64,000 nucleotides of DNA, taken from contig OZ025248.1 of NCBI GenBank assembly GCA_964019135.1, positions 39,735,670-39,799,669 of the forward strand, given 5' to 3'. This document shows, piece after piece, positions 33 to 64,000 of the stretch. The position numbers and the translations under genes are program-made. The notes under the pieces are model-generated. The model ran no database searches. It worked only from the letters and a program-made list of their open reading frames with translations, and had not been told where the DNA came from. Positions within the stretch are counted from its first letter, which is position 1; each line of letters begins with the position of its first letter. The stretch is from Arenicola marina. Its lineage: Eukaryota; Annelida; Polychaeta; Arenicolidae.

Positions 33-224
33 CTTGATGATGACGGCGTGGGCGGGCAGGTTCACGCCCCAGGCCAGGGTGGCTGTACAGACGATGCACC
101 GGATGTGGCCCTCGCCGAAAAAGCGTTCCACGAGGTTCCGGTCTTGCCGCAGCATGCCGGCGTGGTGCATCGCGAAGCCGTCCGCAAACAGTTCCTTCAG
201 CTCGCGGTTTCGGGAGCGCATCAC
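33..224 (-). CDS. ASCC3: ASCC3 exon 14 (residues 768-831)
   Basis: Sixty-four codons in phase 0, from VMRSRNREL to HAVIIK. They hold the HHAGM and [12 protein letters not shown] motifs of RecA domain 2. The acceptor reads ATGTCTCAG before GTGATGCGC, and the donor is AAG|GTAAGG. The next exon, with the QMxGRAGR motif, lies off the window. Confidence 0.95.
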
Positions 225-3200
225 CTGAGACATCCGAATAATTGATACAGAATGCCACGAGAAATCCTTTTTTCAGGCTCACTTTATGCACACGCGGGCT
301 AAATTTTGCCAAGGTACGTCGACGAAGAACGAACGATTTGGGTGACATAGTCAACATAATAGATCCCCCAGACCAGGTTGCAAACCAGGAACATATTGAT
401 CTGCAGCCGAGTGTTCTAGCTACTACTCGGTCACGGAGGCTCCCCTAACACAGGATAAACTCGTCAAGTGCGTCTCAATTTGCCAAATACTTAAAGGTAA
501 TCGCACAATTCCCTCGACATTTAAGCTGTATGACATCAATGTTAATCGAAGGTCATGGGCATTAAAAACAACAATTTAACGAGTCGCCATCATGTCTGTA
601 GAGTAGATTTCCAATTTTCAGGATTGTCATCTTAATTATCAAGAAATCGTTACTTCACATATGCTTCCGTCCTTCGGATTGGTCTTACAATGGGAATCTT
701 TCACGGAGGATTTGACGCAAGGCTGCGTCCCGCTTTGCGATTAAGGTCTCACAGAACGTAAACACTTTGAAGAGCACATCAATACGACAACTGCTTTCAC
801 TAACCTGCTTGAGGGCATCGCCGTATTGCGGAGACTGCTGTGGCTGGAAGAGGGGGATGTCCCCCTTATTCTTGGCCATTTCACAGAGCACGGTGGCTGT
901 CCGCACGGTCTCATTGCGGGCGTGGACGAAGACCATCATCTACAACACGTGGACAAAGACCATCATCTGCAACATGTGGACAAAGACCATCATCTGCAAC
1001 ATGTGGACAAAGACCATCATCTACAACATGTGGACAAAGACCATCATCTACAACATGTGGAGACCATCATCTACAACATGTGGACAAACACCATCATCTA
1101 CAACATGTGGACAAAGACCATCATCTACAACACGTGGACAAAGACCATCATCTACAACATGTGAACAAAGACCATCATCTACAACACGTGGACAAACACC
1201 ATCATCTACAACACGTGGACAAACACCATCATCTACAACATGTGGACAAAGACCATCATCTACAACATGTGGAGACCATCATCTACAACACGTGGACAAA
1301 CACCATCATCTACAACATGTGGACAAAGACCATCATCTACAACACGTGGACAAAGACCATCATCTACAACATGTGAACAAAGACCATCATCTACAACACG
1401 TGGACAAACACCATCATCTACAACACGTGGACAAACACCACCATCTACAACATGTGGACAAAGACCATCATCTACAACACGTGGGCAAAGACCATCATCT
1501 ACAACATGTGGACAAAGACCATCATCTACAACACGTGGACAAAGGCCATCATCTACAACACGTGGACAAAGACCATCATCTGCAACATGTGGACAAAGAC
1601 CATCATCTGCAACATGTGGACAAAGACCATCATCTACAACATGTGGACAAAGACCATCATCTACAACATGTGGAGACCATCATCTACAACATGTGGACAA
1701 AGTCCATCATCTACAACATGTGGAGACAATCATCTACAACATGTGGACAAAGACCATCATCTACAACACGTGGACAAAGACCATCATCTACAACATGTGA
1801 ACAAAGACCATCATCTACAACACGTGGACAAACACCATCATCTACAACACGTGGACAAAGACCATCATCTACAACACGTGGACAAAGACCATCATCTACA
1901 ACATGTGGACAAAGACCATCATCTACAACACGTGGACAAAGGCCATCATCTACAACACGTGGACAAAGGCCATCATCTACAACACGTGGACAAACACCAT
2001 CATCTACAACATGTGGACAAAGACCATCATCTGCAACATGTGGACAAAGACCATCATCTACAACATGTGGACAAAGACCATCATCTACAACATGTGGAGA
2101 CCATCATCTACAACATGTGGACAAAGACCATCATCTACAACATGTGGAGACAATCATCTACAACATGTGGACAAAGACCATCATCTACAACACGTGGACA
2201 AAGACCATCATCTACAACATGTGAACAAAGACCATCATCTACAACACGTGGACAAACACCATCATCTACAACACGTGGACAAACACCATCATCTACAACA
2301 TGTGGACAAAGACCATCATCTACAACACGTGGGCAAAGACCATCATCTACAACACGTGGACAAAGGCCATCATCTACAACACGTGGACAAAGACCATCAT
2401 CTGCAACATGTGGACAAAGACCATCATCTGCAACATGTGGACAAAAACCATCATCTACAACATGTGGACAAAGACCATCATCTACAACATGTGGAGACCA
2501 TCATCTACAACATGTGGACAAAGACCATCATCTACAACATGTGGAGACAATCATCTACAACACGTGGACAAAGACCATCATCTACAACACGTGGACAAAG
2601 ACCATCATCTACAACACGTGGACAAATACCATCATCTACAACATGTGGACACAGACCATCATCTACAACATGTGGACAAAGACCATCATCTACAACATAT
2701 GGACAAAGACCATCATCTACAACATGTGGAAAAAAGACCATCATCTACAACATGTGGACAAAGACCATCATCTACAACACGTGGACAAAGACCATCATCT
2801 ACAACACGTGGACAAAGACCATCATCTACAACACGTGGACAAAGACCATCATCTACAACACGTGGACAAAGACCATCATCTACAACACGTGGACAAAGAC
2901 CATCATCTACAACATGTGGACAAAGACCATCATCTACAACACGTGAACAAAGACCATCATCTACAACATGTGGACAAAGACCATCATCTACAACAAGTGG
3001 ACAAAGACCATCATCTACAACACGTGGACAAAGACCATCATCTACAACACGTGGACAAAGACCATCATCTACAACATGTGGAGACCATCATCTACAACAC
3101 GTGGACAAAGACCATCATCTACGACATGTGGACAAAGACCATCATCTACAACACGTGGATACACACCATCTAGAACAGGTTGTCTTCTGTGTGAATAATT

Positions 3201-6200
3201 TGTCTCTTGGTGTAAACATTCCGAATCGGTATAAACAAGCATGAGACCTTGGCAAACACGCATGTTGGTTTTATGTATGCCCACGTGGAAGACGTTCAGA
3301 AGACCTAAAGCAATGAAAGTATGTCTCATCTACAGCCAAAGAAGATATACCGGTTAGATTCACAGATAATACTGGAAAACCAATATATCATATACATGTA
3401 TATCAAGAGTAGTCTACTGAACCATTTATCACTGTGCCCGTACCTGATATCCTTTCTTCACCTGCCTCAGCACCTTATCATAACACACCGTGTTGAAATC
3501 CTGCATCTGCTGTACTCGGTTTGTGGCCTTGATACCTAAAACAGGAAATATCACAGTCATGTTAGGTTCACAGGGCGGGCTTCAGCCATTGTTCAGCAAT
3601 GAAGCGTGGTCACGTTCTATGAAGGTCACAGTTCATGGAGGTGCAGGACCACTGGCAGATCGTATCGTTCAAGGTCACATGGAGCGATGTGAAGGTTATG
3701 TACAGGTACAGTGGCGGGTCAAGTACCTATGAAGGTCATGTGGAGCGGCACGGAGGCGGGTCACGTACTTATAAAGGTCATATGGAGAGGCACGGGGCGG
3801 GTCACGTACCTATGAAGGTCATATGGAGAGGCACGGGGCGGGTCACGTACCTATGAAGGTCATATGGAGAGGCACGGGGCGGGTCACGTACCTATGAAGG
3901 TCATATGGAGAGGCACGGGGCGGGTCACGTACATATTGAGGTCATGTGGAGAGGCCCGGGGGCGGGTCACGTACCTATGAAGGTCATGTGGAGAGGCACG
4001 GGGGCGGGTCACGTACCTATGAAGGTCATGTGAAGAGGCACGGGGCGGGTCACGTACCTATGAAGATCATGTGGAGAGGCACGGGGGCGGGTCACGTACC
4101 TATGAAGGTCATGTGGAGAGGCACGGAGGCGGGTCACGTACCTATGAAGGTCATGTGGAGAGGCACGGGGCGGGTCACGTACATATTGAGGTCATGTGGA
4201 GAGGCACGGGGCGGGTCACGTACATATTGAGGATATGTGGAGAGGCACGGGGGCGGGTCACGTACCTATGAAGGTCATGTGGAGAGGCACGGGGGCGGGT
4301 CACGTACCTATAAAGGTCATGTGGAGAGGCACGGGGCGGGTCACGTACCTATGAAGGTCATGTGGAGAGGCACGGGGCGGAAGCGACCGTCGAAGAAGAA
4401 GAGGCCGCGGTGCGGGTTGACGTTCAGGAAGCGGGCCACGTCCAGGTAGTTCGGGAGCGTGGCCGACAGACCCACTATCCGGATCATGCTCTGCGAGCTC
4501 TCCACCTGGAGCAGCGGTCAACCAGGGGTCAATCATCATAGGTTGTTATCACCAAATTCATACGTATATACATTATAATACACGAACACAACACATATAT
4601 AACCACTCGTATAACGCATTTTGGAAATTGTTGGCCGTGCGCGAACCCCCCTAACTGTCTCAGTGTACGGGCCACCCACCTACCTGTCTCAGTGTACGGG
4701 CCACCCACCCTACCTGTCTCAGTGTACGGGCCACCCACCCTACCTGTCTCAGTGTACGGGCCACCCACCCTACCTGTCTCAGTGTGCGGGCCACCCACCC
4801 TACCTGTCTCAGTGTACGGGCCACCCACCCTACCTGTCTCAGTGTACGGGCCACCCTACCTGTCTCAGTGTACGGGCCACCCACCCTACACGTCTCAGTG
4901 TACGGGCCACCCACCCTACCTGTCTCAGTGTACGGGCCACCCTACCTGTCTCAGTGTACGGGCCACCCACCCTACATGTCTCAGTGTACGGGCCAGCCAC
5001 CCTACCTGTCTCAGTGTACGGGCCACCCACCCTACCTGTCTCAGTGTACGGGCCAGCCCACCTGTCTCAGTGTACGGGCCACCCACCCTACCTGTCTCAG
5101 TGTACGGGCCACCCACCCTACCTGTCTCAGTGTACGGGCCACCCACCCTACCTGTCTCAGTGTACGGGCCACCCACCCTACCTGTCTCAGTGTACGGGCC
5201 ACCCACCCTACCTGTCTCAGTGTACGGGCCACCCACCCTACCTGTCTCAGTGTGCGGGCCACCCACCCCACCTGTCTCAGTGTACGGGCCACCCACCCTA
5301 CCTGTCTCAGTGTACGGGCCACCCACCCTACCTGTCTCAGTGTACGGGCCACCCACCCTACCTGTCTCAGTGTACGGGCCACCAGGCTCTCGATGACGGA
5401 CCCCCGGTCGTCGTGCAGCAGATGGACCTCGTCAATGATGAGGAGACGGACGATCTGTGTGAGGGCCACGTCCCCGGTGCTCTTCCTCGTGACGACGTCC
5501 CACTTCTCCGGGGTCGTCACCAGCATCTGCCATCACAGGAAATAAATGAAGTGGGTGTTTGTTAGGCCTTATATTGTTTGTGCACACAAGGGATAAACCG
5601 GACCAAAGCATCTGCCGGGGACGATCACAGGCTCAGCCCTATTGGGGGTCAAGCTGTGGCCTACCATCCTGCATACCTCATGCCCTACAGATGGGCTCGG
5701 ACGCACAGTCAGTACTATTGTTACACATATATATATACATACAAATGATAAAACGACAGATTAAATGCTGACAAAGGGGAAAAGGGTAAACTTGTATAGA
5801 TATGGCTTTATAATAGATAAATGAGATTCACACAAAGTTTATAAAACACAGCAACTAAAGCTCACACAGTGAGTTAGATTTAAATGGGGAAGTGTATGTT
5901 TTGGTCCATCTCCGTCATGTCATGTCATGTCGTCTCGACTTTATTCATTTGGTGAGCCAATAATGTGTCTGAGAACCCCACGGATGCGGGAAGTATCGTT
6001 CAGGATCCAGGTCCCTACCTGAGTCTTCATGATCTCGGCCTTGGTGAGCTGCATGTCCCCGGTATCCAGATCACTACCTGAGTCTTCATGATCTCGGCCT
6101 TGGTGAGCTGCATGTCCCCGGTATCCAGGTCCCTACCTGAGTCTTCATCATCTCGGCCTTGGTGAGCTGCATGTCCCCGGTATCCAGGTCCCTACCTGAG

Positions 6201-9200
6201 TCTTCATCATCTCGGCCTTGGTGAGCTGCATGTCCCCGGTATCCAGGTCCCTACCTGAGTCTTCATGATCTCGGCCTTGGTGAGCTGCATGTCCCCGGTA
6301 TCCAGGTCCCTACCTGAGTCTTCATGATCTCGGCCTTGGTGAGCTGCATGTCCCCGGTATCTAGGTCCATACCTGAGTCTTCATGATCTCGGCCTGGGTG
6401 AGCTGCATGTCCCCGGTATCCAGGTCCCTACCTGAGTCTTCATCATCTCGGCCTTGGTGAGCTGCATGTCCCCGGTATCCAGATCCCTACCTGAGTCTTC
6501 ATGATCTCGGCCTTGGTGAGCTGAAGGTCCCCGGTATCCAGATCCCTACCTGAGTCTTCATGATCTCGGCTTTGGTGAGCTGCATGTCCCCGGTATCCAG
6601 GTCCCTACCTGAGTCTTCATGATCTAGGCCTGGGTGAGCTGCATGTCCCCGGTATCCAGGTCCCTACCTGAGTCTTCATGATCTCGGCCTTGGTGAGCTG
6701 AAGGTCCCCGGTATCCAAATCCCTACCTGAGTCTTCATGATCTCGGCCTTGGTGAGCTGCATGTCCCCGGTATCCAGGTCCCTACCTGAGTCTTCATGAT
6801 CTCGGCCTTGGTGAGCTGTATGTTCCCGGTATCCAGGTCCCTACCTGAGTCTTCATGATCTCGGCCTTGGTGAGCTGAAGGTCCCCGGTATCCAGATCCC
6901 TACCTGAGTCTTCATGATCTCGGCCTTGGTGAGCTGCATGTCCCCGGTATCCAGGTCCCTACCTGAGTCTTCATGATCTCGGCCTGGGTGAGCTGCATGT
7001 CCCCGGTATCCAGGTCCCTACCTGAGTCTTCATGATCTCGGCCTTGGTGAGCTGAAGGTCCCCGGTATCCAAATCCCTACCTGAGTCTTCATGATCTCGG
7101 CCTTGGTGAGCTGACGGTCCCCGGTATCCAGATCCCTACCTGAGTCTTCATGATCTCGGCCTTGGTGAGCTGCATGTCCCCGGTATCCAGGTCCCTACCT
7201 GAGTCTTCATGATCTCGGCCTTGGTGAGCTGTATGTTCCCGGTATCCAGGTCCCTACCTGAGTCTTCATGATCTCGGCCTTGGTGAGCTGCATGTCCCCG
7301 GTATCCAGATCCCTACCTGAGTCTTCATGATCTCGGCCTTAGTGAGCTGCATGTCCCCGGTATCCAGGTCCCTACCTGAGTCTTCATGATCTCGGCCTTG
7401 GTGAGCTGCATGTCCCCGGTATCCAGGTCCCTACCTGAGTCTTCATGATCTCGGCCTTGGTGAGCTGCATGTCCCCGGTATCCAGGTCCCTACCTGAGTC
7501 TTCATGATCTCGGCCTTGGTGAGCTGCATGTCCCCGGTATCCAGGTCCCTACCTGAGTCTTCATGATCTCGGCCTGGGTGAGCTGCATGTCCCCGGTATC
7601 CAGGTCCCTACCTGAGTCTTCATGATCTCGGCCTTGGTGAGCTGAAGGTCCCCGGTATCCAAATCCTTACCTGAGTCTTCATGATCTCGGCCTTGGTGAG
7701 CTGACGGTCCCCGGTATCCAGATCCCTACCTGAGTCTTCATGATCTCGGCCTTGGTGAGCTGCATGTCCCCGGTATCCAGGTCCCTACCTGAGTCTTCAT
7801 GATCTCGGCCTTGGTGAGCTGTATGTTCCCGGTATCCAGGTCCCTACCTGAGTCTTCATGATCTCGGCCTTGGTGAGCTGCATGTCCCCGGTATCCAGAT
7901 CCCTACCTGAGTCTTCATGATCTCGGCCTTAGTGAGCTGCATGTCCCCGGTATCCAGGTCCCTACCTGAGTCTTCATGATCTCGGCCTTGGTGAGCTGCA
8001 TGTCCCCGGTATCCAGGTCCCTACCTGAGTCTTCATGATCTCGGCCTTGGTGAGCTGCATGTCCCCGGTATCCAGGTCCCTACCTGAGTCTTCATGATCT
8101 CGGCCTTGGTGAGCTGCATGTCCCCGGTATCCAGATCCCTACCTGAGTCTTCATGATCTCGGCCTTGGTGAGCTGCATGTCCCCGGTATCCAGGTCCCTA
8201 CCTGAGTCTTCATGATCTAGGCCTGGGTGAGCTGCATGTCCCCGGTATCCAGGTCCCTACCTGAGTCTTCATGATCTCGGCCTTGGTGAGCTGAAGGTCC
8301 CCGGTATCCAAATCCCTACCTGAGTCTTCATGATCTCGGCCTTGGTGAGCTGCATGTCCCCGGTATCCAGGTCCCTACCTGAGTCTTCATGATCTCGGCC
8401 TTGGTGAGCTGTATGTTCCCGGTATCCAGGTCCCTACCTGAGTCTTCATGATCTCGGCCTTGGTGAGCTGAAGGTCCCCGGTATCCAGATCCCTACCTGA
8501 GTCTTCATGATCTCGGCCTTGGTGAGCTGCATGTCCCCGGTATCCAGGTCCCTACCTGAGTCTTCATGATCTCGGCCTGGGTGAGCTGCATGTCCCCGGT
8601 ATCCAGGTCCCTACCTGAGTCTTCATGATCTCGGCCTTGGTGAGCTGAAGGTCCCCGGTATCCAAATCCCTACCTGAGTCTTCATGATCTCGGCCTTGGT
8701 GAGCTGACGGTCCCCGGTATCCAGATCCCTACCTGAGTCTTCATGATCTCGGCCTTGGTGAGCTGCATGTCCCCGGTATCCAGGTCCCTACCTGAGTCTT
8801 CATGATCTCGGCCTTGGTGAGCTGTATGTTCCCGGTATCCAGGTCCCTACCTGAGTCTTCATGATCTCGGCCTTGGTGAGCTGCATGTCCCCGGTATCCA
8901 GATCCCTACCTGAGTCTTCATGATCTCGGCCTTAGTGAGCTGCATGTCCCCGGTATCCAGGTCCCTACCTGAGTCTTCATGATCTCGGCCTTGGTGAGCT
9001 GCATGTCCCCGGTATCCAGGTCCCTACCTGAGTCTTCATGATCTCGGCCTTGGTGAGCTGCATGTCCCCGGTATCCAGGTCCCTACCTGAGTCTTCATGA
9101 TCTCGGCCTTGGTGAGCTGCATGTCCCCGGTATCCAGATCCCTACCTGAGTCTTCATGATCTCGGCCTTGGTGAGCTGCATGTCCCCGGTATCCAGGTCC

Positions 9201-12200
9201 CTACCTGAGTCTTCATGATCTCGGTCTTGGTGAGCTGCATGTCCCCGGTATCCAGGTCCCTACCTGAGTCTCTATGATCTCGGCCTTGGTGAGCTGCATG
9301 TCCCCGGTATCCAGGTCCCTACCTGAGTCTTCATGATCTCGGCCTTGGTGAGCTGCATGTCCCCGGTATCCAGGTCCCTACCTCAGTCTTCATGATCTCG
9401 GCCTTGGTGAGCTGCATGTCCCCGGTATCCAGGTCCCTACCTGAGTCTTCATGATCTCGGCCTTGGTGAGCTGCATGTCCCCCGTATCCAGGTCCCTACC
9501 TGAGTCTTCATGATCTCGGCCTTGGTGAGCTGCATGTCCCTGGTATCCAGATCCCTACCTGAGTCTTCATGATCTCGGCCTTGGTGAGCTGCATGTCCCC
9601 GGTATCCAGGCACCTACCTGAGTCTTCATGATCTCGGCCTTGGTGAGCTGCATGTCCCCGGTATCCAGATCCCTACCTGAGTCTTCATGATCTCGGCCTG
9701 GGTGAGCTGCATGTCCCCGGTATCCAGGTCCCTACCTGAGTCCTCATGATCTCGGCCTTGGTGAGCTGCATGTCCCCGGTCAGCTCCTTTACGGAGACGC
9801 CCAGTGGCTCCAGGCGCTTTCCGAAGTTACGCACCATCTCCGCCGCCAGGGCCTTCATCGGCGCCACGTACACGATCTATAGACAGCGCCACCACGCGAA
9901 GGAAACGGAAACTAGAGTATTAGTCAATAGTCAACACGCGTTTGTTATCATTATGGCAACAACATTATTACATTATTCAGCTTTCTAATTTATATAATTA
10001 TATATATCTAGTATATGGCTATGTAATATTCATAATAATAATAATAATAATCAGTTTATTATGTATATAATTATTCTGGTAGTGTTGAATATTCATACGC
10101 CAACAATGACCATAATACAAAAAAATAATGATATTCTTTATTATAGTTATCATTAAATGACGGAGTGCGGGAGGGAGGCTTTCACCTTGAACTCGTCCTT
10201 CTTGATGACGCCCTGCTCGATGTGCTGCATCATCTCGTGCAGCACACACAGCATGGCGATGTTGGTCTTCCCGGCGCCGGTCGGGGCGCAGATCAACAGG
10301 TTCTCGTTCGAGTTGTAGGCCGCGTCAAACACCACCGACTGAATGCGGTTCAACGTCTTCGTTCCTTTGAACGCCACTTGAGCGATCTTTGGGCGAGAGG
10401 GGAGAATAAGAAACATCCCCACCAATATAGATATATTCCACAAGTATATCGTCAGGAAGTGCAGGCCAGATAAACAACGAGTGGGGAGGGGACGATTGGA
10501 ACGATATAATATCTAAAATATGTTCATTTAATAAAGTGGAGCCATGTTGGGGAGGGGGGTGGGGAGGTAAACCCCTACACTATATCATATACGAACGCTG
10601 ATTGAGGCCAGAATACGAAAGATGTAAATTATTGTATAAAACGAATCTATGGTATAATGCATTTGTTATGTTTCTTTGAGGAGAGCCTGCTGGATGGCAA
10701 TCTCCTTTAGGGGAACCTCGTCAATCATTTGGTTAATTATAACAATAGTCGTGTCAAACAGCGATGACACGTGGCACCGTGGGCGATAATAGATGAGCGT
10801 TGAGTGACCTGGTCCAGTTCAGCTACGGGGACCAGGCGACTGCCCACGTTGGCGGGAGCGCCGTCATTGGGAGGGATGTTGATTTCCTCGTACATCTTGC
10901 TTTCCTCGCGCTCGAACCCGGTCGGCAACACCATCTGTACGGGAACATGGAACCACGTTGTTTAGATATAGCGACTGGGAACTGGCATGACAACATAGAT
11001 GCTCCCTATAGCCATGGCTTATATACCGTATTACAATACGTTGATGTTACGTAGCGTTAGCGTGCAACTAGATTCCAGATGCAGATATTGGCATCCAGAA
11101 TTAGCACCTGTATAAAATGAAAATAATTACGATCTTAGATTAAGAGTTACAACTTAGTGCCCACATGAAAATATTGTATAGAGTATTTTAATAGAATACC
11201 ATAGTTCTAAAGAATATTTCCATAAAATACTTCAATGGAATACTATAGAATAATATTTTTTATAGAATACTACAGTAGATTCCATAGTATACCTACATCT
11301 ACATCTACATTCTGCGGCCCATTGTGATAAAACGTCTGGAATACATCCATTCCGCAGATATCACAGTTACTTCTCGTACCACTTGGATTTAGTCATTCGC
11401 ACAAATCTCCCATTCAGCCATGGTTGGTCTAAAGGCTGGCACAAGACGTGCGGGATTTAATGGAGAAAAACAAATTAATTTCGCCCTGGAACCAACGCAA
11501 TGTGGATGTGGTATCATTGACCAGATGACTTGCCTTGCTGCCCGAAATAAAGGCTGAACTCTGCCTGGCCTCGGCGTAGGAGTCAAAGACGAAGGGGTAT
11601 TGTTCTGGCGGCGGGGCCCTCTTGCTGGAGCCCTGGGAGAACAGAGGGGCACTCGCCGCGGCGTACAGCGCAGCCTCCCTGTAACACACCGGCCCGTCAA
11701 CCACGTTATGTCAGTGCTAAGCGTATCCGACTTACCAGAGATATACCAAAATAGTGGATCGAACTAAAAACAGACGGCATAACGGCCCCTAAAGGTTATC
11801 AGGTGAAAAACTACAAAATATACAGGGTGCAAAGTTAAACACAAGATACAAGCAGAATCAACGATTTAGGGATAATTATTTTAATCAAAATTGGGTGATG
11901 GAATTGGATTGGATCATTTGCAAATATGGTGTAAAGACGTGACAAAGAAAGTATTTACAACAAGTGTAAGGAAGATTAATATAACAGATGGGGACCGACT
12001 AGAAATCCAAAAAAAGCACAAAATACATTGCAACGACATAGCTTACCTTTGGGCTCGCAGATGTTTAGGATCAAACCCCAAAGACTGCAGATTCTCTTCT
12101 TGCTCTTTCTCATCCCCAAATTTTTTGGAATATTTCTTCTCTTCTCTACGAAGTTGCTTCCGCAGTTGCTTCTCTTGCTCTGACTGAAAGCATAACGCAT

Positions 12201-15200
12201 ATCGTTCGAGACACGGATTCGTAAATTAGCTAAGCAAGGACAAACGGATGCTAAAAGACCATATGCCAACGTGTACACACATGTTTCAATACCACATTAA
12301 GTGTGTTTTTTGCATTTTGTGAGATAATAGACACTGCTCACCTCAACAACAACTTGGCACCCGTATTGTGGCCGCACTGGTTCCGATGGCAATCCTGTTG
12401 GTATAAGAACGGCATAATCTTTAATTCCTCATAACATAATACTGGCCATACCTAATAGTAACACATCCGTCGCCATAAAGAAATACATTGCACTGCCACT
12501 ATGACATATGCGCCAGTACGTGTGTTCCTTAGAGACGTATTTACTCACTCCTATTATACGTGAGTGAGTAGAAGGCTTATAAAAACTTCACATTAAACAA
12601 AAACTTGATCACCGAACTTAATGCAGAACGATCACTTCCGGGTATATTTCGCCACCTTTCCCGCGCGGGAAGATATTCCTCCTATAGGAACACTTCTTGT
12701 TCAAGGGTTGTACGATGATATATCTCAACCACTCTGCCTACTCCAAGCCCATTATTAAGAACATAATTATTCCACAACCCTTTCAAAAATGTTAAATTCT
12801 GAGGTACATTCGTAAAAAAAACAGGCTAGTACTTTCCAATCCTGACCTAGCCATTTCCTGCACCACGTGTACCAGTTACACCACAGTGACTACCTAATAC
12901 ACACCTGGGGCGGACTTCAGCACGTGTTCAGAATCCTGGAGCAGCCATTATTCTGCACCACGTGTACCAGCTACACCACAGTGACTACATACTGTGGCGG
13001 GCTTCAGCACGTGGTCAGAATCCTGGAGCAGCCATTATTCTACACCACGTGTACCAGCTACACCACAGTGACTACATACTGTGGCGGGCTTCAGCAAGTG
13101 GTCAGAATCCTGGAGCAGCCATTATTCTGCACCACATGTAGCACTTACATCACCATGACTACCTAATACACACCTGGGGCGGGCTTCAGCACGTGGTCAG
13201 AATCCTGGAGCAGCCATTATTCTGCACCACATGTAGCACTTACATCACCATGACTACCTAATACACACCTGGGGCGGGCTTCAGCACGTGGTCAGAATCC
13301 TGGAGCAGCCACTATTCTGCACCACATGTAGCACTTACATCACCATGACTACCTAATACACACCTGGGGCGGGCTTCAGCACGTGGTCAGCCGCTGATGT
13401 GAACGCGGCATCAATAACACTTTGTCGTTTCTCCAGGATGGACTGAATCAGGTCAAACTGCTCAAAGCCCATCAGCTCAAACAGCTGCAAATAATGTGGC
13501 AGATATTGCACCAAAATCATACAGTACAGTATTGTACACTGAGAAGTATGAACATAGGACTAGGCATTTCCATCGGTGCGAGATAGTTATTATAGTAGAG
13601 AAATATTTTTGACTTTAATGGAAAGAAATCATTCAATAGGTCCATCATACTAACGGTCGTAGGAAGACGCTATGTAGAAGGTGGACCAGCGATTGCACAA
13701 TTACCAGTGATTGCGCATTTGCCGAAATGCACTTTCGTTATTTTATTCACATGAAATTTTGTCTAAGCTTTTACCAGACAGATGCCTTCGTGAGTGACAG
13801 CTACCTTGACGTTCATTTTGTAAAATTCCAAGCAATATCTGCATATTATTTTAACCATCTTTTGCTTTGTGCGCAATCACTGGCACCTGTGCAATCACTG
13901 GTCTGATAACTATATGTATGAACAGATCACTGCGAGCCCGATCATTGATCTCGGCTTCAGGTGCCACAGGTTTCCGTGCTGTTAGTACCTCATTCTGCAG
14001 CTCATCGTCCGACCGGCCCGAGGTGAGCACGTCAAAGATGGCGCTGCAGAGGACGGGCACGGACATGCCCATGCCGGTCTCCTGGCCCCCGTACGCCTCC
14101 TCCACGTGCTTGCGCAGCCACCCGGCGTCCATGCCCCCGCCGCCGCCGCCGCCGCGGCCGGCCGGCGTGGCGTGGGCCGCCTGCCCGCCCGCCCCATCCC
14201 CGGTCGCCGGCTTCATGTCGAAGTCCAGCGCCGCGCCGCGTAACTCCTGAGACTCAAACTCCAGCCAATCCAGAGTCTCCCCCGATCCCGTGGAGTTAAC
14301 GGCGAAGCGGATGTGTTGCCCGAAGGCGCCGTCCAAATCCGAATTTAATTGATCGGGAGTTTGGCTGGTGACCGCTTGCAGGACGTCGTCGGGCAGGTGG
14401 CTGGAGATGTGCTGCACGACCTGGCAGGCCTTGGTGGCGGCGCTGGCGGGGAAGGGCCCGAACAGCCCCCGGAGGTGGATCGATTCAGCGTGGCTCACGC
14501 ACTCGGCGTACTTAAAGGTGTCGAACAGCAAAAGGGCGGCGGCCTCCACGTCCGCCGCCAAGGCATCGGGACCCACTGAAGGGTGGGAGAAGGACAGAGT
14601 ATACATATATCATCTACTCAACGCTTCAACATACGCACATGTACGGTATCTGATATCATTTAGTCAACGTTTCAACATACGCACATGTACGGTATCTCAA
14701 CCATTATATCAAGAATACGTACACTCAAAGACGTCGACGTTATCATACGTACATTCATCCACCCACGTCTACGGCGTCGCGGGACGCAAAAAAACATACA
14801 CCAATGCGTATGACGTCACGCGACGCACATCAATTCACCGATTTTTCTAATGTCACGAAACGCTTACTCGAAGCGAATTCCATGAATTTCTAGTGGCCTC
14901 GGTGAGTGGAATAATCTCTTTATAGCCGTATATGGCTGACTCGAGACTGGGAAACCTGCTCCCGACGTCGTACCTGCATATGCCCGTGCCTATAATGTCT
15001 AAAAAGTTACAGGAGAGGTAATATATATCTATTTATGTACCGGTGGGACGTCACGAGATCTCCAGACATCTATGCGCCCACTTCTCTGACGTCACGAATG
15101 ACGTCATTATACCTACCAATGCCTCCAGCCGCTTTGCGGAGATCTTTCAGCGCTGACACGATCTCACGCTCCTCCATCTCAGCGGACTGAAGCATCATCT

Positions 15201-15357
15201 TCTCAAACTTGGGCCACCCGAGTTCTTTCTCCGATGTTTTCTGCACGACCAGACGCCGTTTGCCGACGAGCTCTTTCTCCGGCTGCTGGGGCGGCGTGTC
15301 GTTCATGGACACGCCGCCAAAGGCACGGATCGCACCCGTGAGCCGGGGAAGCGCCAT
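33..15357 (-). CDS. ASCC3: ASCC3 helicase, 5' part (14 exons, residues 1-831, runs off the left edge)
   Basis: ASCC3 is the Ski2-like helicase of the activating signal cointegrator complex. The family unwinds DNA for ALKBH3-linked alkylation repair and splits collided ribosomes. Fourteen exons are joined by splice signals, and every junction keeps phase (2,493 nt, 831 codons). The start [14 protein letters not shown] matches the ASCC3 N terminus. Motifs in order: LNRIQS (482-487), Walker A APTGAGKT (504-511), APMKAL (542-547), ELTGD (568-572), TTPEKWD (588-594), DEVH (616-619), SAT (653-655), MVFVHAR (724-730), HHAGM (787-791), [12 protein letters not shown] (814-825). Motif VI and the second helicase cassette lie beyond base 1. 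The related spliceosomal Brr2 (SNRNP200) is excluded by the N terminus and by [13 protein letters not shown] and [12 protein letters not shown]. Five introns hold splice-site-spanning minisatellites. Coordinates span introns; exons are listed separately. Confidence 0.96.
225..804 (-). other. ASCC3 intron 13 (no repeat array)
   Basis: Intron of 580 bp with donor CAG|GTTAGT and acceptor CTCAG. It is unique-looking AT-rich sequence with no tandem repeat and no gene, unlike neighbouring introns 9-12. Confidence 0.85.
805..939 (-). CDS. ASCC3: ASCC3 exon 13 (residues 723-767)
   Basis: Forty-five codons in phase 0, [15 protein letters not shown] to DALKQ, covering helicase motif IV. The acceptor TTGTAG|ATGATGG is the exon-proximal member of the 27-bp array that fills most of intron 12. 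The exon reads GTCTTCGTCCACGCC where array units read GTCTTTGTCCACGTG, so the true copy can be told apart. Confidence 0.95.
929..3172 (-). repeat. 27-bp minisatellite spanning the exon-13 acceptor (about 83 units)
   Basis: On the gene strand each unit is TTGTAG followed by ATGATGGTCTTTGTCCAC and G/A-TG. That is the 3' splice site and first 18 nt of exon 13, repeated into intron 12. Some units lack 4-5 nt. Marker variants (units reading gtgaacaaag on the plus strand) lie at 1161, 1373, 1797 and 2221, so a higher-order repeat of about 424 bp (half-period 212) is present. Every full unit ends in an in-frame TAG. Long open frames on the plus strand (up to 573 codons) come from the period being divisible by three and are not genes. 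Confidence 0.95.
3444..3535 (-). CDS. ASCC3: ASCC3 exon 12 (residues 692-722)
   Basis: Starts with 2 nt completing a split Gly, then [18 protein letters not shown] to KKGYQ. The acceptor is GTTTTAG, the donor CAG|GTACGG. It aligns with the GIKCANKMQQ stretch between RecA1 and RecA2 in vertebrate ASCC3. Confidence 0.94.
3680..4380 (-). repeat. 41/42-bp minisatellite spanning the exon-11 donor (about 16 units)
   Basis: Each unit on the gene strand is GTACGTGAC, then CCGCCCCGTGCCTCTCC, then ACATGACCTTCATAG. This is the last ~30 nt of exon 11 ([11 protein letters not shown]) plus its donor and about 10 nt of intron. Copies differ by the length of a C run (41 or 42 bp), and the left-most are degenerate. 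The AG|GTACGT donor is kept in nearly all. Confidence 0.94.
4349..4505 (-). CDS. ASCC3: ASCC3 exon 11 (residues 640-691 and first base of 692)
   Basis: [19 protein letters not shown] through [19 protein letters not shown], phase 1 at the end. It contains helicase motif III (SAT). The acceptor is GCTCCAG|GTGGAG. The chosen donor ATAG|GTACGT (4349/4348) is the exon-proximal copy of the repeated donor; any copy further left leads to an in-frame TGA two codons on. Confidence 0.95.
4656..5383 (-). repeat. 30-bp minisatellite spanning the exon-10 donor (about 25 units)
   Basis: Unit on the gene strand: GCCCGTACACTGAGACAG (Ala-Arg-Thr-Leu-Arg-Gln, the last six codons of exon 10) plus GTAGGGTGGGTG from the intron. 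The period is divisible by three, and the unit is open in the exon-10 frame as [10 protein letters not shown]. Several units are shortened to 26 bp, which shifts the frame; the first ten next to the exon are in frame. Confidence 0.95.
5362..5526 (-). CDS. ASCC3: ASCC3 exon 10 (residues 585-639)
   Basis: Fifty-five codons, [20 protein letters not shown] to SLVARTLRQ, phase 0 at both ends. It carries TTPEKWD and the DEVH Walker B box (616-619). The acceptor is GATGGCAG|ATGCTGG. The donor is CAG|GTAGGG, followed by about 24 further copies of itself. If splicing used a more distal copy the protein would stay open and gain [10 protein letters not shown] repeats. Confidence 0.95.
5527..6002 (-). 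other. Unique 3' part of ASCC3 intron 9
   Basis: About 475 bp between exon 10 and the 59-bp array. It is AT-rich with a short TA/CA run near 5730 and a small catgt repeat near 5930. No gene is seen. Confidence 0.7.
6003..9779 (-). repeat. 59-bp minisatellite spanning the exon-9 donor (about 64 units)
   Basis: Each gene-strand unit is about 45 nt of coding sequence ([15 protein letters not shown]) followed by GTAGGGACCTGGAT, so about three quarters of the unit is exon and nearly every unit keeps CAG|GTAGGG. Variant units (ctgaaggtcc..aaatcc, ctgacggtcc, ctgtatgttcc) recur in blocks; two such markers repeat 590 bp (10 units) apart, at 7060/7650 and 7111/7701. The true exon encodes Arg (AGG) where array units encode Lys (AAG). 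Confidence 0.96.
9736..9876 (-). CDS. ASCC3: ASCC3 exon 9 (residues 538-584)
   Basis: Forty-seven codons, [14 protein letters not shown] to KAEIMRTQ, phase 0. It holds motif Ia (APMKAL) and motif Ib (ELTGD). The acceptor is TCTATAG|ATCGTG. The donor at 9736/9735 is the exon-proximal CAG|GTAGGG; about 63 more copies follow downstream. Confidence 0.96.
9877..10185 (-). other. ASCC3 intron 8 with an (AAT)n microsatellite
   Basis: Intron of 309 bp, AT-rich, with a run of about seven AAT/ATT triplets at 10032-10051. Donor AAG|GTGAAA, acceptor CTATAG. Confidence 0.85.
10186..10386 (-). CDS. ASCC3: ASCC3 exon 8 (residues 471-537, Walker A)
   Basis: Sixty-seven codons from [20 protein letters not shown] to KKDEFK. 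It contains the Q-motif-like LNRIQS and the ATP-binding loop APTGAGKT (Lys 510). The acceptor is CGCCCAAAG|ATCGCT, the donor AAG|GTGAAA. Phase 0 at both ends. Confidence 0.96.
10387..10808 (-). other. ASCC3 intron 7
   Basis: Intron of 422 bp with donor CAG|GTCACT and acceptor CCCAAAG. It has a short G-rich stretch near 10540 and no array or gene. Confidence 0.8.
10809..10934 (-). CDS. ASCC3: ASCC3 exon 7 (residues 429-470)
   Basis: Forty-two codons, [19 protein letters not shown] to LVPVAELDQ. It aligns with the vertebrate KMILPEGIQRENNKLYEEV region just before the helicase core. The acceptor is CCGTACAG|ATGG, the donor CAG|GTCACT. Confidence 0.94.
10935..11533 (-). other. ASCC3 intron 6, a GC-AG intron
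   Basis: Protein alignment places the junction exactly at GSK|MVLP. The donor there is AAG|GCAAGT, the strong consensus of the minor GC-AG class, with acceptor GTACAG. The intron is 599 bp with short TAGAATA-type repeats near 11200-11290. Confidence 0.85.
11534..11678 (-). CDS. ASCC3: ASCC3 exon 6 (residues 380-428)
   Basis: One base completes a split Arg, then [19 protein letters not shown] to SSAFISGSK (48 codons). It aligns with the vertebrate REQALLNARSVP..YPHVYDSQAEA..AFIAGAK region. The acceptor is TGTTACAG; the donor is the GC type AAG|GCAAGT. Confidence 0.93.
12047..12183 (-). CDS. ASCC3: ASCC3 exon 5 (residues 335-379 and two bases of 380)
   Basis: [20 protein letters not shown] to FDPKHLRAQ, a highly charged, probably helical stretch. 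It matches vertebrate SEQEKQLMKQYRREEKR..FDPKELR. The acceptor is GCTTTCAG|TCAGAG, the donor AAAG|GTAAGC. Confidence 0.95.
12342..12394 (-). CDS. ASCC3: ASCC3 exon 4, 53-nt microexon (residues 317-334)
   Basis: Two bases finish a split Gly, then [17 protein letters not shown] (17 codons), phase 0 at the end. It matches AKPNYGCQVTIQ of vertebrate ASCC3. The acceptor is ACCAACAG, the donor GAG|GTGAGC. It has no ATG and is too short to show as an open frame. Confidence 0.93.
12395..12849 (-). other. Unique 3' part of ASCC3 intron 3
   Basis: About 455 bp of AT-rich intronic sequence between exon 4 and the exon-3-donor array. No gene or repeat is seen. Confidence 0.7.
12850..13400 (-). repeat. 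~90-bp minisatellite spanning the exon-3 donor (6 copies)
   Basis: Copies begin near 12900, 12989, 13079, 13170, 13265 and 13361. On the gene strand each contains CACGTGCTGAAGCCCGCC (the end of exon 3) followed by CCAG|GTGTGT, or ACA|GTATGT in two copies, and about 70 nt of intron. Spacing varies from 89 to 96 bp. Confidence 0.9.
13364..13484 (-). CDS. ASCC3: ASCC3 exon 3 (residues 277-316 and first base of 317)
   Basis: [19 protein letters not shown] to ADHVLKPAP, ending in phase 1. It aligns with LFELLGPEGLELIEKLLQNR of vertebrates. The acceptor is ATTTGCAG; the donor CCAG|GTGTGT is the first of six tandem copies. Confidence 0.94.
13485..13988 (-). other. ASCC3 intron 2
   Basis: Intron of 504 bp with donor GAG|GTACTA and acceptor ATTTGCAG. 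AT-rich, with no array and no gene. Confidence 0.8.
13989..14575 (-). CDS. ASCC3: ASCC3 exon 2 (residues 81-276)
   Basis: Largest exon in the window (587 nt). [20 protein letters not shown] and [15 protein letters not shown] match the vertebrate N-terminal region, and DDELQNE matches SGDELQDE at the end. Residues about 202-230 are a low-complexity insert ending in a run of seven Gly encoded by a CCG/GGC tract at 14135-14160. The acceptor is CCCTTCAG, the donor GAG|GTACTA. The start is set by the split Val shared with exon 1. Confidence 0.95.
14576..15116 (-). other. ASCC3 intron 1
   Basis: Intron of 541 bp rich in ACGT/ACGTCA motifs, with a roughly 50-bp direct repeat at about 14615-14700. 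Donor ATTG|GTAGGT, acceptor ACCCTTCAG. Confidence 0.8.
15117..15357 (-). CDS. ASCC3: ASCC3 exon 1, coding start (residues 1-80)
   Basis: The ATG at 15357 opens [14 protein letters not shown], nearly identical to the vertebrate start [13 protein letters not shown]. It ends [10 protein letters not shown] plus one base of Val. Of two possible donors (ATTG|GTAGGT and TAG|GTATAA), only the first keeps phase with exon 2 and gives AAGGIVG. A possible acceptor (CAATCCAG) 8 bp before the ATG suggests a 5' UTR intron. Confidence 0.95.
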
Positions 15358-19294: not shown

Positions 19295-19430
19295 TTCATA
19301 AAAGTGGAGGATCCCCCCCCCCCCCACCACCGCCCCTCTTCATGGCCGACACGTAGTCTCAGGCGTACTTTTGAGAAACTTTAACAGCATCATAAAATGT
19401 TGTAGGTAAAACCTAGAAGGCGAGCGTAAC

Positions 19431-19797
19431 CTTTGACTTTGCCACCTAAAAATAGGCTAAGGCAATGAAAAAAACAATTTCCATCCCCTGGTACATTGAC
19501 TGACCGAAAATGTTCGTTCTCAAAGTTTAAAAGTGCCGTGTTTTGTGGGGAGGGATCATTGCATGGTGTAGGTGGAGTGCCATGGTCAGATAGATGTGGC
19601 CGGCAATAATTATGTTCCTGCCTTCCTGCTCCCTGATTTGGATTTGTAACTTCACGACTCAGCTCATGTAGTGAGCGTGAGTAATTATGCTCAAGATCTC
19701 TAGAATTTGAAACTGGACGACTGGTTGTCTGGGTTGTGTTACGGTTACCCAGTGTGAAGCACTGTGAATATTTTTTTATGTAAGTGTGGTCCGCCAT
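19431..19797 (-). CDS. OTU-type cysteine protease, N-terminal exon fragment
   Basis: The frame starts at an ATG (MADHTYIKKYSQCF) and runs 122 codons to a possible donor AAAG|GTTACG. Near its end it has HFRSVNVPGDGNCFFHCLS, the catalytic Asp-Gly-Asn-Cys box that opens OTU deubiquitinase domains. The rest of the domain, including the catalytic His, is not seen downstream to 18.2 kb. The preceding about 95 residues are polar, Asn/Ser/Thr-rich and unrecognised. OTU domains occur in host deubiquitinases and in transposable elements; the sequence does not settle which. It may be an orphan exon. Confidence 0.55.
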
Positions 19798-19829
19798 TAT
19801 TCAATGCAGCAAAAAGTAGTCTACGATAG

Positions 19830-27965: not shown

Positions 27966-30900
27966 GACCCATAGTCGAGGTCGAAGTCGAAGTGGGTTGG
28001 TCTTGTGTCCGCGGTACTCTTCTTCTTTGGGCTGGTGTCTGCGGAACTCTTCTTTTCCCGGCTGGTGTCTGCGGGACTCTTCTTCTTCCGGCTGGCGTCT
28101 GCGGGACTCTTCTTCTTCCGGCTAGCGTCTGCGGGACTCTTCTTCTTCCGGCTGGCGTGTTGTGTTTGCTGAACTCTTCTTCTTCCGGCTGGCGTCTTGT
28201 GTCTGCGGGACTCTTCTTCCGGCTGGCGTCTTGTGTCCGCGGAACTCTTCTCCTTCCGACTGGTGTCTGCGGGACTCTTCATCTTCCGGCTGGTCCCTTG
28301 TATCGGCGGAACTCTTCTTCTTCCGGCTGGCGTCTGCGGGACTCTTCTTCTTCCGGCTGGCGTCTTGTGTCCGCGGGACTCTTCTTCTTCCGGCTGGCGT
28401 CTTGTGTCCGAGGAACGCTTCTTCTTCCGGCTGGTGTCTTGTGTCCGCGGGACTCTTCTTCTTCCCGCCTGTCTCCGGACTCTTCTTTTTCCGGCTGGCG
28501 TCTGCTGTCCGGGGGACTCTTTTTCTTCCCGCTGGCGTCTGCGGGACTCTTCTTCTTCCGGCAGTTGTCGAGTTCGAAGTCGAAGTGGGTTGGTCTTGTG
28601 TCCGCGGTACTCTTCTTCTTCGGGCTGGCGTCTGCGGGACTCTTTTTCTTCCGGCTGGCGTCTGCGGGACTCTTTTTCTTCCGGCTTGCGTCTGCGGAAC
28701 TCTTTTTCTTCCGGCTGGCGTCTTGTGTCCGCGGGACTCTTTTTCTTCCGGCTGGTGTCTGCGGGACTCTTCTTCTTCCGGCTTGCGTCTTGTGTCTGCG
28801 GGACTCTTCTTCTTCCGGCTGGCGTCTTGTGTCCGCGGAACTCTTCTCCTTCCGACTGGTGTCTGCGGGACTCTTCATCTTCCGGCTGGTCCCTTGTATC
28901 GGCGGAACTCTTCTTCTTCCGGCTGGCGTCTTGTGTCCGAGGAACTCTTCTTCTTCCGGCTGGTGTCTTGTGTCCGCGGGACTCTTCTTCTTCCCGCTGG
29001 CGTCTGCGGGACTCTTCTTCTTCCGGCAGTTGTCGAGGTCGAAGTCGAAGTGGGTTGTTCTTGTGTCCGCGGTACTCTTCTTCTTCGGGCTGGCGTCTGC
29101 GGGACTCTTTTTCTTCCGGCTGGCATCTGCAGGACTCTTTTTCTTCCGGTTGGTGTCTGCGGGACTCTTCTTCTTCCGGCTTTCGTCTTCTGTCCGCGGG
29201 ACTCTTCTTCTTCCCGCTGGCGTCTGCGGGACTCTTCTTCTTCCGGCAGTTGTCGAGGTCGAAGTCGAAGTGGGTTGGTCTTGTGTCCGCGGTACTCTTC
29301 TTCTTCGGGCTAGCGTCTGCGGGACTCTTTTTCTTCCGGCTGGCATCTGCAGGACTCTTCTTCTTCCGGCTGGTGTCTGCGGGACTCTTCTTCTTCCGGC
29401 TTTCGTCTTGTGTCCGCGGAACTCTTCTTCTTCCGGCTGGTGTCTGCGGGACTCTTCTTCTTCCGGCTTTCGTCTTGTGTCTGCGAGACTTTTCTTCTGG
29501 CTGGCGTCTTGTGTCCGCGGGACTCTTCTTCCGGCTGGTGTCTTGTGTCTGCGGGACTCTTCTTCTGCCCTGGTGGCGTCTTGTGTCCGCGGAACTCTTC
29601 TTCTTCCTGTTGGCGTCTGCCGGTCTCTTCTTCTTCCGGCTGGCGTCTTCTGTCTGCGGGACTCTTCTTCTTCTCGCTGTCGTCTGCGAGACTCTTCTTC
29701 TTCCGGCTGTCGTCTGCGGGACTCTTCTTCTTCCGGCAGGTGTCTGCAGGAGTCTTCTTCTTCCGGCTGGCGTCTTGTGTCCGCTGAACTCTTCTTCTTC
29801 GGGCTGGCGTCTGCGGGACTCTTTTTCTTCCGGCTGGCATCTGCAGGACTCTTTTTCTTCCGGTTGGTGTCTGCGGGACTCTTTTTCTTCCGGCTTGCGT
29901 CTGCGGGACTCTTCTTATTCCCGCTGGCGTCTGCGGGACTCTTTTTCTTCCGGCTGGCGTCTGCGGGACTCTTCTTCTTCCGGCCGGCGTCTTGTGTCAG
30001 CGGGACTCTTCTTCTTCCGGCTGGCGTCTGCGGAACTCTTCTTCTTCCGGCTGGCGTCTTGTGTCCGCGGAACTCTTCTTCTTCCGGCTGGTGTCTGCGG
30101 GACTCTTCTTCTTCCGGCTTTCGTCTTGTGTCCGCGGAACTCTTCTTCTTCCGGCTGGTGTCTGCGGGACTCTTCTTCTTCCGGCTTTCGTCTTGTGTCT
30201 GCGAGACTTTTCTTCTGGCTGGCGTCTTATGTCCGCGGGACTCTTCTTCTTCCGGCTGGTGTCTTGTGTCTGCGGGACTCTTCTTCTGCCCTGGTGGCGT
30301 CTTGTGTCCGCGGAACTCTTCTTCTTCCTGCTGGCGTCTGCCGGTCTCTTCTTCTTCCGGCTGGCGTCTTCTGTCTGCGGGACTCTTCTTCTTCTCGCTG
30401 TCGTCTGCGAGACTCTTCTTCTTCCGGCTGTCGTCTGCGGGACTCTTCTTCTTCCGGCAGGTGTCTGCAGGAGTCTTCTTCTTCCGGCTGGCGTCTTGTG
30501 TCCGCTGAACTCTTCTTCTTTCGGCTGGCGTCTTGTGTCCGCTGAACTCTTCTTCTTCCGGCTGGCCTCTTGTGTCCGCTGAACTCTTCTTCTTCCGGCT
30601 GGCGTCTTCTATCCGCGGGACTCTTCTTCTTCCCGCTGGCGTCTGCGGGACTCTTCTTCTTCTAGCAGTAGTCGAGGTCGAAGTCGAAGTGGGTTGGTCT
30701 TGTGTCCGCGGTACTCTTCTTCTGCGGGCTGGTGCCTGCGGAACTCTTCTTTTTCGGGCTGGCGTCTGCGGGACTCTTTTTCTTCCTGCTGGCGTCTGCG
30801 GGACTCTTTTTCTTCCGGCTGGTGTCTGCGGGCCTTATTTTCTTCCGGCTTGCGTCGGCGGGACTCTTCTTATTCCGGCTGGCGTCTGCGGGACTCTTCT

Positions 30901-31486
30901 TCTTCCGGCTGGCGTCTGCTGGACTCTTCTTCTTCCGGCTGGCGTCTTGTGTCCGCGGGACTCTTCTTCTTGCGGATGGCGTCTGCGGGACTCTTCTTCT
31001 TCTGGCTGGCGTCTGCGGGACTCTTCTTCTTCCGGCTGGCGTCTGCGGGACTCTTCTTCTTCCGGCTTGCGTCTTGTGTCCGCGGAACTATGCTTCTTGC
31101 GGCTGGTGTCTGCGGGACTATTCTTCTTTCGGCTTGCGTCTTGTGTCTGCGGGACTCTTCTTCTTCCGGCTGGCGTCTTGTGTCCGCGGGACTCTTCTGC
31201 TTCCGGCTGGTATCTGCGGGACTCTTCTTCTTCCGGCTTGCGTCTTGTGTTTGCGGGACTCTTCTTCTGGCTGGCGTTTTGTGTCCGCGGAACTCTTCTT
31301 CTTCCGGCTGGTGTCTTATGTCTGCTGGACTCTTCTTCTTCCCTGGTGGCGTCTTGTGTCCGCGGAACTCTTCTTCTTCCTGCTGGCGTCTGCGGGACTA
31401 TTCTTCTTCCGGTTGGCGTCTTCTGTCCGCGGGACTCTCCTTCTTCCCGCTGGCGTCTGCGGAACTCTTCTTCTTCCGGCCGGTTA
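27966..31486. repeat. 30/39-bp minisatellite, about 3.5 kb
   Basis: The core unit is ggctggcgtctgcgggactc plus ttcttcttcc (30 bp), with a 39-bp form that adds ttgtgtccg. A longer marker (gtcgaggtcgaagtcgaag) recurs near 27976, 28566, 29033, 29256 and 30672 and marks higher-order blocks. Both strands are open over long stretches (838 and 782 codons on plus; 355 on minus) because the unit is a multiple of three and stop-free in several frames. The peptides are plain repeats such as GLFFFRLASA or KKSPADASRK. No start context or splice signals support coding. Confidence 0.9.
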
Positions 31487-31891: not shown

Positions 31892-32020
31892 GTGATATAC
31901 GTTGCTCGGAATGCGAAGGATACAATAGTGTCTTACTATTACTTCGTGAAAATGTTGTCTGTCACGAAGTATACTGGGTTCTTTGAAGACTTTTACCAGT
32001 TTTATGACTGGGAAAGGCAG
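31892..32020 (+). CDS. Cytosolic sulfotransferase-like exon (isolated)
   Basis: After an acceptor TATTGTGTTTAG the frame reads VIYVARNAKDTIVSYYYF, the conserved SULT segment (vertebrate VVYVARNAKDVAVSYYHF) whose Arg and Ser contact the 3'-phosphate of PAPS, then TGFFEDFYQFYDWER. It begins in phase 0, like the matching SULT exon. The usual GxVxYGSW continuation is absent, no good donor is seen, and the frame runs into a SINE from 32160. No other SULT exon was found nearby. Either a fragment of a dispersed gene or a relic exon. The right boundary is approximate. Confidence 0.6.
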
Positions 32021-35478: not shown

Positions 35479-35610
35479 TCACACGCCGGGTCCCCGTCCC
35501 AGGACCGACCAGACCGTCTCCACCACCCCTCGCCGCACACCCACCAGCCAGTCATACATGTTGACGGTAGGATCGCAATGTCCAGGCGTCAGCCACACTA
35601 AATCGCCCAC
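35479..35610 (-). CDS. DSD-like last exon (43 codons and stop)
   Basis: VGDLVWLTPGHCDPTVNMYD then WLVGVRRGVVETVWSV to GPGV and TGA. It carries the zinc-binding His and Cys of PGHCDPT. The acceptor is CTTTGACAG, about 20 bp from the edge of a 36-bp minisatellite. Confidence 0.92.
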   Translation of the reverse strand: MGDLVWLTPGHCDPTVNMYDWLVGVRRGVVETVWSVLGRGPGV

Positions 35611-51075: not shown

Positions 51076-51189
51076 CGGCTGGTCGTCCCGCGGGAGGCCG
51101 CAAGAACACGCTTTCATACGTCTCCATGTATCGTGGTTCAGTGTGATTGGCACTTTATTCTATTCGTGACTGAGCGAGTCCCTGTCATT

Positions 51190-51400
51190 GCTTACTTCCA
51201 GGGTTCCAGTACTGCGGAATCGTCAGCTTACAAGAATTTGTAGCAGCTGCGATTGATCAATACACTCGCATGATTACTCACTTTCAGGGTTCAAGTACTG
51301 CGGAATCGTCAGCTTACAAGAATTTGTAGCAGCTGCGATTGATCAATACACTCGCATGATTACTCACTTTCAGGGTTCAAGTACTGCGGAATCGTCAACT
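51190..51400. repeat. 85-bp direct repeat, about 2.3 copies
   Basis: The motif aagtactgcggaatcgtcag and the text up to actcactttcagggttc occurs at about 51205, 51290 and 51375; the last copy is partial. Confidence 0.85.
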
Positions 51401-51459
51401 TGCACGGATTTTGAACATTACCTGGATGGCACGATACGGTCTTATGTTAGACCATTATT

Positions 51460-63300: not shown

Positions 63301-64000
63301 CACCCGTGTGCTCCAGCTACCCCCTCCACACCCGTGTACTCTAGCTACCCCCTCCCCACCCGTGTGCTCCAGCTACCCCCTCCCCACCCGTGTATTCGAG
63401 CGACCCCCTCCCCACCCGTGTACTCTAGCTACCCCCTCCCCACCCGTGTGCTCCAGCTACCCCCTCCCCACCCGTGTATTCGAGCGACCCCCTCCCCACC
63501 CGTGTTGTCCAGCCACCCTCTCCCCACCCGTGTACTCTAGCTACCCCCTCCCCACCCGTGTACTCTAGCTACCCCCTCCCCACCCGTGTACTCTAGCTAC
63601 CCCCTCCCCACCCGTGTACTCTAGCTACCCCCTCCCCACCCGTGTACTCTAGCTACCCCCTCCCCACCCGTGTGCTCCAGCTACCCTCTCCCCACCCGTG
63701 TACTCCAGCTACCCCCTCCACACCCGTGTTGTCCAGCTACCCCCTCCCCACCCGTGTGCTCCAGCTACCCCCTCCCCACCCGTGTACTCTAGCTACCCCC
63801 TCCCCACCCGTGTACTCCAGCTACCCCCTCCCCACCCGTGTTGTCCAGCTACCCCCTCCCCACCCGTGTACTCTAGCTACCCCCTCCCCACCCGTGTACT
63901 CTAGCTACCCGCTCCCCACCCGTGTACTCTAGCTACCCCCTCCCCACCCGTGTACTCTAGCTACCCCCTCCCCACCCGTGTGCTCCAGCTACCCCCTCCC
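54345..64000. repeat. 28-bp C-rich minisatellite, about 9.6 kb to the window end
   Basis: The main unit is ctagctaccccctccccacc plus cgtgtact. Variants are tgctccag, ttgtccag, attcgagcga, and a block of taccc-gctcccc units at 55400-55730. The left 350 bp are diverged. Higher-order copies: the 291-bp text at 57010-57300 recurs at 57542-57832 (532 bp = 19 units) and 63642-63932; 61405-61900 recurs about 364 bp (13 units) later. The minus strand has GGGTGGGGAGGGGG in each unit. All open frames here (e.g. YSSYPLPTRVLQLPPPHPC) are repeat by-products. Confidence 0.95.
55786..55985. repeat. AT-rich interruption, duplicate of the array's left flank
   Basis: Reads atatccttccattaatctat .. aataaatataataagaat .. 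gtctccagccaccc. It aligns with 54235-54375 (atcctttcatttatttatat .. gataaatataataagatt .. gtctccagccacc), including the first decayed units of the array. Confidence 0.8.

Follow-up and report, generated by a model that had tools for sequence, protein, structure and literature searches.

Why do five introns of a single gene each hold a minisatellite whose unit runs across an exon-intron border, and which of the resulting junction copies would be used in splicing? An original prediction had placed such arrays in introns 3, 9, 10, 11 and 12 of an ASCC3 gene of Arenicola marina, and we approached both questions within the window, that is, the whole stretch of 64,000 nucleotides that was analysed. 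The analysis builds on a gene model, of which the following elements are needed here, the gene as a whole from the exon model and a protein match and the individual exons from the exon model.

33..15357, minus strand: ASCC3 exons 1-14, the N-terminal part of the gene, with 831 codons and 13 complete introns
13364..13484, minus strand: ASCC3 exon 3, whose donor recurs within the 95-bp array
9736..9876, minus strand: ASCC3 exon 9
5362..5526, minus strand: ASCC3 exon 10
4349..4505, minus strand: ASCC3 exon 11
805..939, minus strand: ASCC3 exon 13

Joined together, the 14 exons form a single open frame of 831 codons. The best solved relative of the model is chain 8alz_B, named Activating signal cointegrator 1 complex subunit 3, which we take to be the human chain (E = 2.3e-260, query residues 406-831), and a second chain of the ASCC3 name, 6yxq_A, matches model residues 1-174. 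The alignment of residues 406-831 with 8alz_B contains no gaps at all and spans the junctions of exons 9-13, while exon 3 lies outside it. Twelve of the 13 complete introns start with GT; the remaining one, intron 6, starts with GC and is a GC-AG intron (position 11533, minus strand, AAG|GCAAGT).

Within this model, Tandem Repeats Finder (TRF) detects six arrays, five of which span a junction. The first five lines below are based on TRF together with anchor counts, the last on TRF.

12849..13390, minus strand: 95-bp array of intron 3, 6 units, each with 27 nt from the end of exon 3 and 68 nt of intron 3
6005..9780, minus strand: 59-bp array of intron 9, 64 units, each with 45 nt from the end of exon 9 and 14 nt of intron 9
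4645..5383, minus strand: 30-bp array of intron 10, 25 units, each with 22 nt from the end of exon 10 and 8 nt of intron 10
3713..4380, minus strand: 41/42-bp array of intron 11, 16 units, each with 32 nt from the end of exon 11 and 9 nt of intron 11
922..3170, minus strand: 27-bp array of intron 12, 85 units, each with 8 nt from the end of intron 12 and 19 nt from the start of exon 13
14607-14697: array of intron 1, two 46-bp copies, without contact to a junction

The predicted border-crossing arrays are thus borne out by TRF, the exon model and the match to 8alz_B. They also begin at the functional exon, as had been stated: the terminal unit of each includes the working junction and extends 18-45 nt into the exon (27, 45, 22, 32 and 18 nt for introns 3, 9, 10, 11 and 12, respectively). 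The unit lengths of 59, 30, 41/42 and 27 bp hold, whereas the value of about 90 bp given for intron 3 has to be corrected to 95 bp, with two spacings of 87. The combined length of 7,974 bp matches the estimate of about 8 kb, and the roughly 195 duplicate splice sites that had been announced come close to the 191 extra junction copies that we count by anchor (5, 63, 24, 15 and 84 in introns 3, 9, 10, 11 and 12), where the count for the 59-bp array leaves out one spurious anchor 56 nt before the true site and the 85 units of the 27-bp array include one degenerate unit at its upstream end. Nearly all of these copies retain the dinucleotide of the splice site: GT or AG is intact in 3/5, 63/63, 23/24, 15/15 and 84/84 copies (same order of introns), or 188/191 in total, the 95-bp array having lost the GT in two of the five copies that accompany its functional donor, and the 27-bp array having AG in all 85 of its 85 units. 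The complete AG|GT core is found in 3/5, 63/63, 21/24 and 11/15 of the copies in the four donor arrays (98/107 in total). The original prediction considered this core a feature common to these four arrays; it is indeed present, but it is merely the donor consensus, since 12 of the 14 ASCC3 donors read AG|GT. The TRF consensus units of the five arrays differ from one another.

The prediction further held that chance cannot explain five such arrays in one gene. We evaluated this by collapsing each array to one unit and placing it at random, leaving out positions wholly within an exon, either uniformly or restricted to sites whose GC content was no more than 0.05 below that of the unit. When placement is uniform, five junction-spanning arrays out of five are unlikely (P = 3.2e-5), but with GC matching the value rises to 2.1e-3; for at least five of the six ASCC3 arrays, the corresponding values are 2.3e-4 and 0.009, and 6.0e-5 is obtained when purely exonic positions are allowed. 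The GC-matched placement is the fairer one, because GC is high in the four donor units (0.52-0.63, compared to 0.41 for the acceptor unit) and the introns are poorer in GC than the exons (40% and 61%). Composition may nevertheless not be the whole cause, given the GC-matched P of 0.009 for at least five of six. A second gene in the window provides a comparison.

35479-38359, minus strand: five C-terminal exons of a D-threonine / D-3-hydroxyaspartate aldolase-like gene (PDB 6qkb, E = 1.2e-41; Pfam PF14031, E = 8.3e-19)
35627-36350: 36-bp intron array of this gene, 20 copies, ending 16 nt short of the acceptor

None of the three intron arrays in this partial, five-exon model spans a junction, where two overlapping TRF rows were merged into one for the count. 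For at least five junction-spanning arrays out of nine over both genes, P is 0.0014 with uniform and 0.034 with GC-matched placement. The two genes together therefore suggest a junction bias but fall short of proving it, and the P values can be regarded as suggestive only, because ASCC3 was picked for looking striking.

The remainder of the window contains several further repeats. In a donor-like motif test, scored with donor frequencies, the four donor arrays of ASCC3 were matched by 2.0-9.6% of shuffles and the acceptor array by 59%; among 12 chosen consensus units outside the five, one was matched by 2.8%. This 86-bp unit (2.5 copies, 51187-51401) has a strong donor-like site on the minus strand, AAA|GTGAGT, and could possibly represent a further junction-spanning array in some other gene. 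A 167-bp tandem array at 49202-51078 (11 copies, 98% matches by TRF) looks younger than most others, and a C-rich minisatellite with a 28-bp unit, more than 9 kb long (54653-64000, 334 copies by TRF), is cut by the end of the window. An array of roughly 30-bp units, 3.5 kb in length (28005-31484), is open in several frames, with a KKKSPADASR-like translation on the minus strand. Dispersed tRNA-like (SINE-like) repeats were seen by eye at about 19300, 32250, 38550, 41740, 43640 and 44420. Rfam at the gathering threshold gave no matches, and ARAGORN, run with the bacterial code, no genes. A Pfam search covering 134 of 192 open frames (at least 55 aa, outside masked stretches) returned five families with one member each, of which Sulfotransfer_1 alone was given a place: a sulfotransferase-like exon stretch at 31892-31999 on the plus strand (PF00685, E = 8.8e-7), for which no partner exons were found by eye. 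The frame at 19393-19800 on the minus strand matched no Pfam family.

Returning to ASCC3, the exon-nearest junction of exons 9-13 is, as judged from the protein match, the copy that keeps the protein intact, because the gapless alignment of residues 406-831 covers these junctions. Splicing at an internal copy would introduce a stop codon for 181 of the 191 copies; the remaining 10, all of them among the 24 copies of intron 10, would instead insert open sequence in frame, 10 codons or a multiple of 10 in length. The strength of the donors can be ruled out as the selector of the working site. Copies pair with U1 as well as the working donor does in 60/63 cases in intron 9, 19/24 in intron 10, 10/15 in intron 11 and 3/5 in intron 3, amounting to 92/107. 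The working donor does not stand out from its copies by complementarity to U1, so position would have to decide which donor is used, in the manner of exon definition.

The units within the arrays show how these may have evolved. Across the five arrays we find 5, 23, 9, 12 and 23 distinct unit types, so that the 59-bp array has 23 types among 64 units and the 27-bp array likewise 23 among 85. The 59-bp array has, in addition, a higher-order period of 27 units, 46% of units being identical at lag 27 compared to a median of 10% across lags 1-31. Variation of this sort, combined with a higher-order repeat, is what unequal exchange would usually leave behind. In three arrays, the positions derived from the exon vary less than those derived from the intron (permutation P 0.026, 0.444 and 0.134), and in the other two they vary more (0.127 and 0.055). 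While the 95-bp array with its P of 0.026 would, taken alone, point to constraint on the exon-derived parts, the mixed direction does not consistently indicate that the copies are maintained for coding, and we therefore discarded purifying selection on the exon parts of the decoy copies. In two of the five arrays, the functional edge unit departs from the array consensus within its exon part (AGG against the consensus AAG in exon 9, TTC against TTT in exon 13), in one it does so within its intron part, and in the remaining two it is identical to the consensus. None of the five arrays is flanked by direct repeats above chance: four have just 2-3 bp, and the longest, the 5-bp CCGCC at the 41-bp array, is reached at a fraction of 0.066 of other spacings. 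A 6-bp repeat, TCCACG, that seemed to frame the 27-bp unit was dropped as a candidate seed, as one of its two stretches is part of a degenerate unit copy.

The explanation that we consider probable is that these are five independent minisatellites of a type known as mirages, which arose by local tandem duplication, expanded by unequal exchange, and whose copies are tolerated as intron. In each array separately, a short stretch across one exon-intron junction would have been duplicated in tandem, after which unequal exchange or replication slippage could have enlarged the array. Judging by the preserved protein, the spliceosome presumably keeps using the junction copy nearest to the exon body; the other copies would then simply be intron, making growth of the array nearly neutral. 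Where a decoy copy is used, the outcome would mostly be a stop codon, as found for the great majority of copies, presumably followed by nonsense-mediated decay. The preference for junctions could be due at least partly to composition, since the edges of the exons are GC-rich and the introns next to them AT-rich, and partly to survival, since purely exonic arrays would be purged. One could alternatively speculate that the junction copies serve as alternative donors or acceptors, regulating the output of ASCC3 or inserting peptide repeats. The retention of GT or AG and the U1 pairing of the donor copies would be in line with such a role, as would the in-frame multiples of 10 codons in intron 10. 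We nonetheless regard it as quite improbable, considering the stop codons, the lack of consistent constraint on exon-derived parts, and the Adh3 data and RT-PCR of the globin paper, which, in its available text, suggest that regular splicing is undisturbed (PMC3087553).

A different possibility is that the junctions are actively targeted, by a transcription- or splicing-coupled process (paused polymerase, R-loops or breaks at exon edges) that seeds junction duplications genome-wide. Five of six ASCC3 arrays at a junction, under either form of placement, would fit this proposal, and similar arrays have been reported independently in other, amphioxus genes, according to the accessible parts of two papers (PMC3087553, PMC3902484). 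Set against it are the aldolase-like gene without a single array at a junction, the weaker GC-matched P once both genes are considered, the choice of ASCC3 for its striking look, and the occurrence of both donor and acceptor sides, which leaves no single common motif; we thus hold it to be unlikely. Its furthest-reaching form, in which tandem duplications in this lineage arise preferentially at transcribed junctions through a coupled step, so that many introns carry decoy arrays and these drive the length of introns, and perhaps their birth, is in our view a long shot. The gene also yields a concrete prediction, enrichment at junctions relative to GC-matched placement, which would decide whether junction seeding is real. 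Finally, the assembler might have inflated or misjoined repeat copies: the array lengths are those of the assembled sequence alone, and a globin mirage of one haplotype appears to be aberrantly assembled in the draft genome, as described in the available text of PMC3087553. An error of this kind is very improbable as the origin of the arrays, since the units vary within each of them, no two arrays share the same unit, and joining the 14 exons yields one open frame; copy numbers may be wrong, but the arrays themselves are unlikely to be artefacts.

Mirage-type minisatellites thus remain our preferred reading, and by their sequence features the ASCC3 arrays are a real example of this known kind. 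Canestro and co-workers 2002 is reportedly the original Adh paper. The available text of PMC3087553 uses the term "mirages" for tandem repeats across exon-intron boundaries in amphioxus, describes them in Adh3 and in the globin genes BflGb6 and BflGb9, naming floridae and B. lanceolatum, mentions reports from other loci, and proposes mirages as a route to intron gain. A troponin C (TnC) mirage is named in the accessible part of the PGBD5 paper, whose authors liken to mirages two junction-overlapping arrays with 60- and 108-bp repeats in lancelet PGBD5 (PMC3902484). As far as these texts extend, the shared features are as follows: the tandem unit includes a donor or acceptor junction, as in all five arrays here; many but not all copies have AG/GT signals, compared to 188/191 in ASCC3; and the units are of minisatellite size, 10-72 bp in Adh3 and 150-160 bp in the globins against 27, 30, 41/42, 59 and 95 bp in ASCC3 (PMC3087553). 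The BflGb6 mirage, with 6 and 3 units in two haplotypes, is described there as leaving its edge unit out of homogenisation (PMC3087553). The ASCC3 edge unit differs in its exon part in two of five arrays, which resembles this exclusion, and equals the consensus in two others, which do not show it. Length polymorphism and somatic instability are traits of amphioxus mirages; in ASCC3, for which we have one sequence, the higher-order repeat hints at unequal exchange.

Cases outside this group are more distant. In segmentally duplicated human genes, the available text of PMC2812944 reports that minisatellites at exon-intron boundaries can form new introns, with on average 30-bp units repeated four times and changes in the splicing pattern; the ASCC3 arrays are longer, and the protein appears to be unchanged. 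In a potato RNA-dependent RNA polymerase gene, an intragenic tandem duplication has been linked to intron structure and a new intron, while in ASCC3 existing introns have been lengthened, a comparison made with the title of PMC4974935. Amphioxus VCBP3 has partial exons with splice sites inside introns, and its available description includes no junction arrays.

The statement in the original prediction that no case of this density had been described may hold for the density itself, but the kind is in print for several amphioxus genes, as the accessible parts of PMC3087553 and PMC3902484 show. Set beside just 6 and 3 units in BflGb6, and two arrays of 2-7 imperfect copies in lancelet PGBD5 in the text available, the five ASCC3 arrays with 6-85 units each are denser than the published cases compared, among which no gene with five arrays appears and which represent a small part of the literature. 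With 188 decoy splice sites, this one gene offers a natural setting in which to test how the exon-nearest site is chosen by the spliceosome, and its arrays also bear on the idea, put forward for amphioxus in the available text of PMC3087553, that such arrays give birth to introns.
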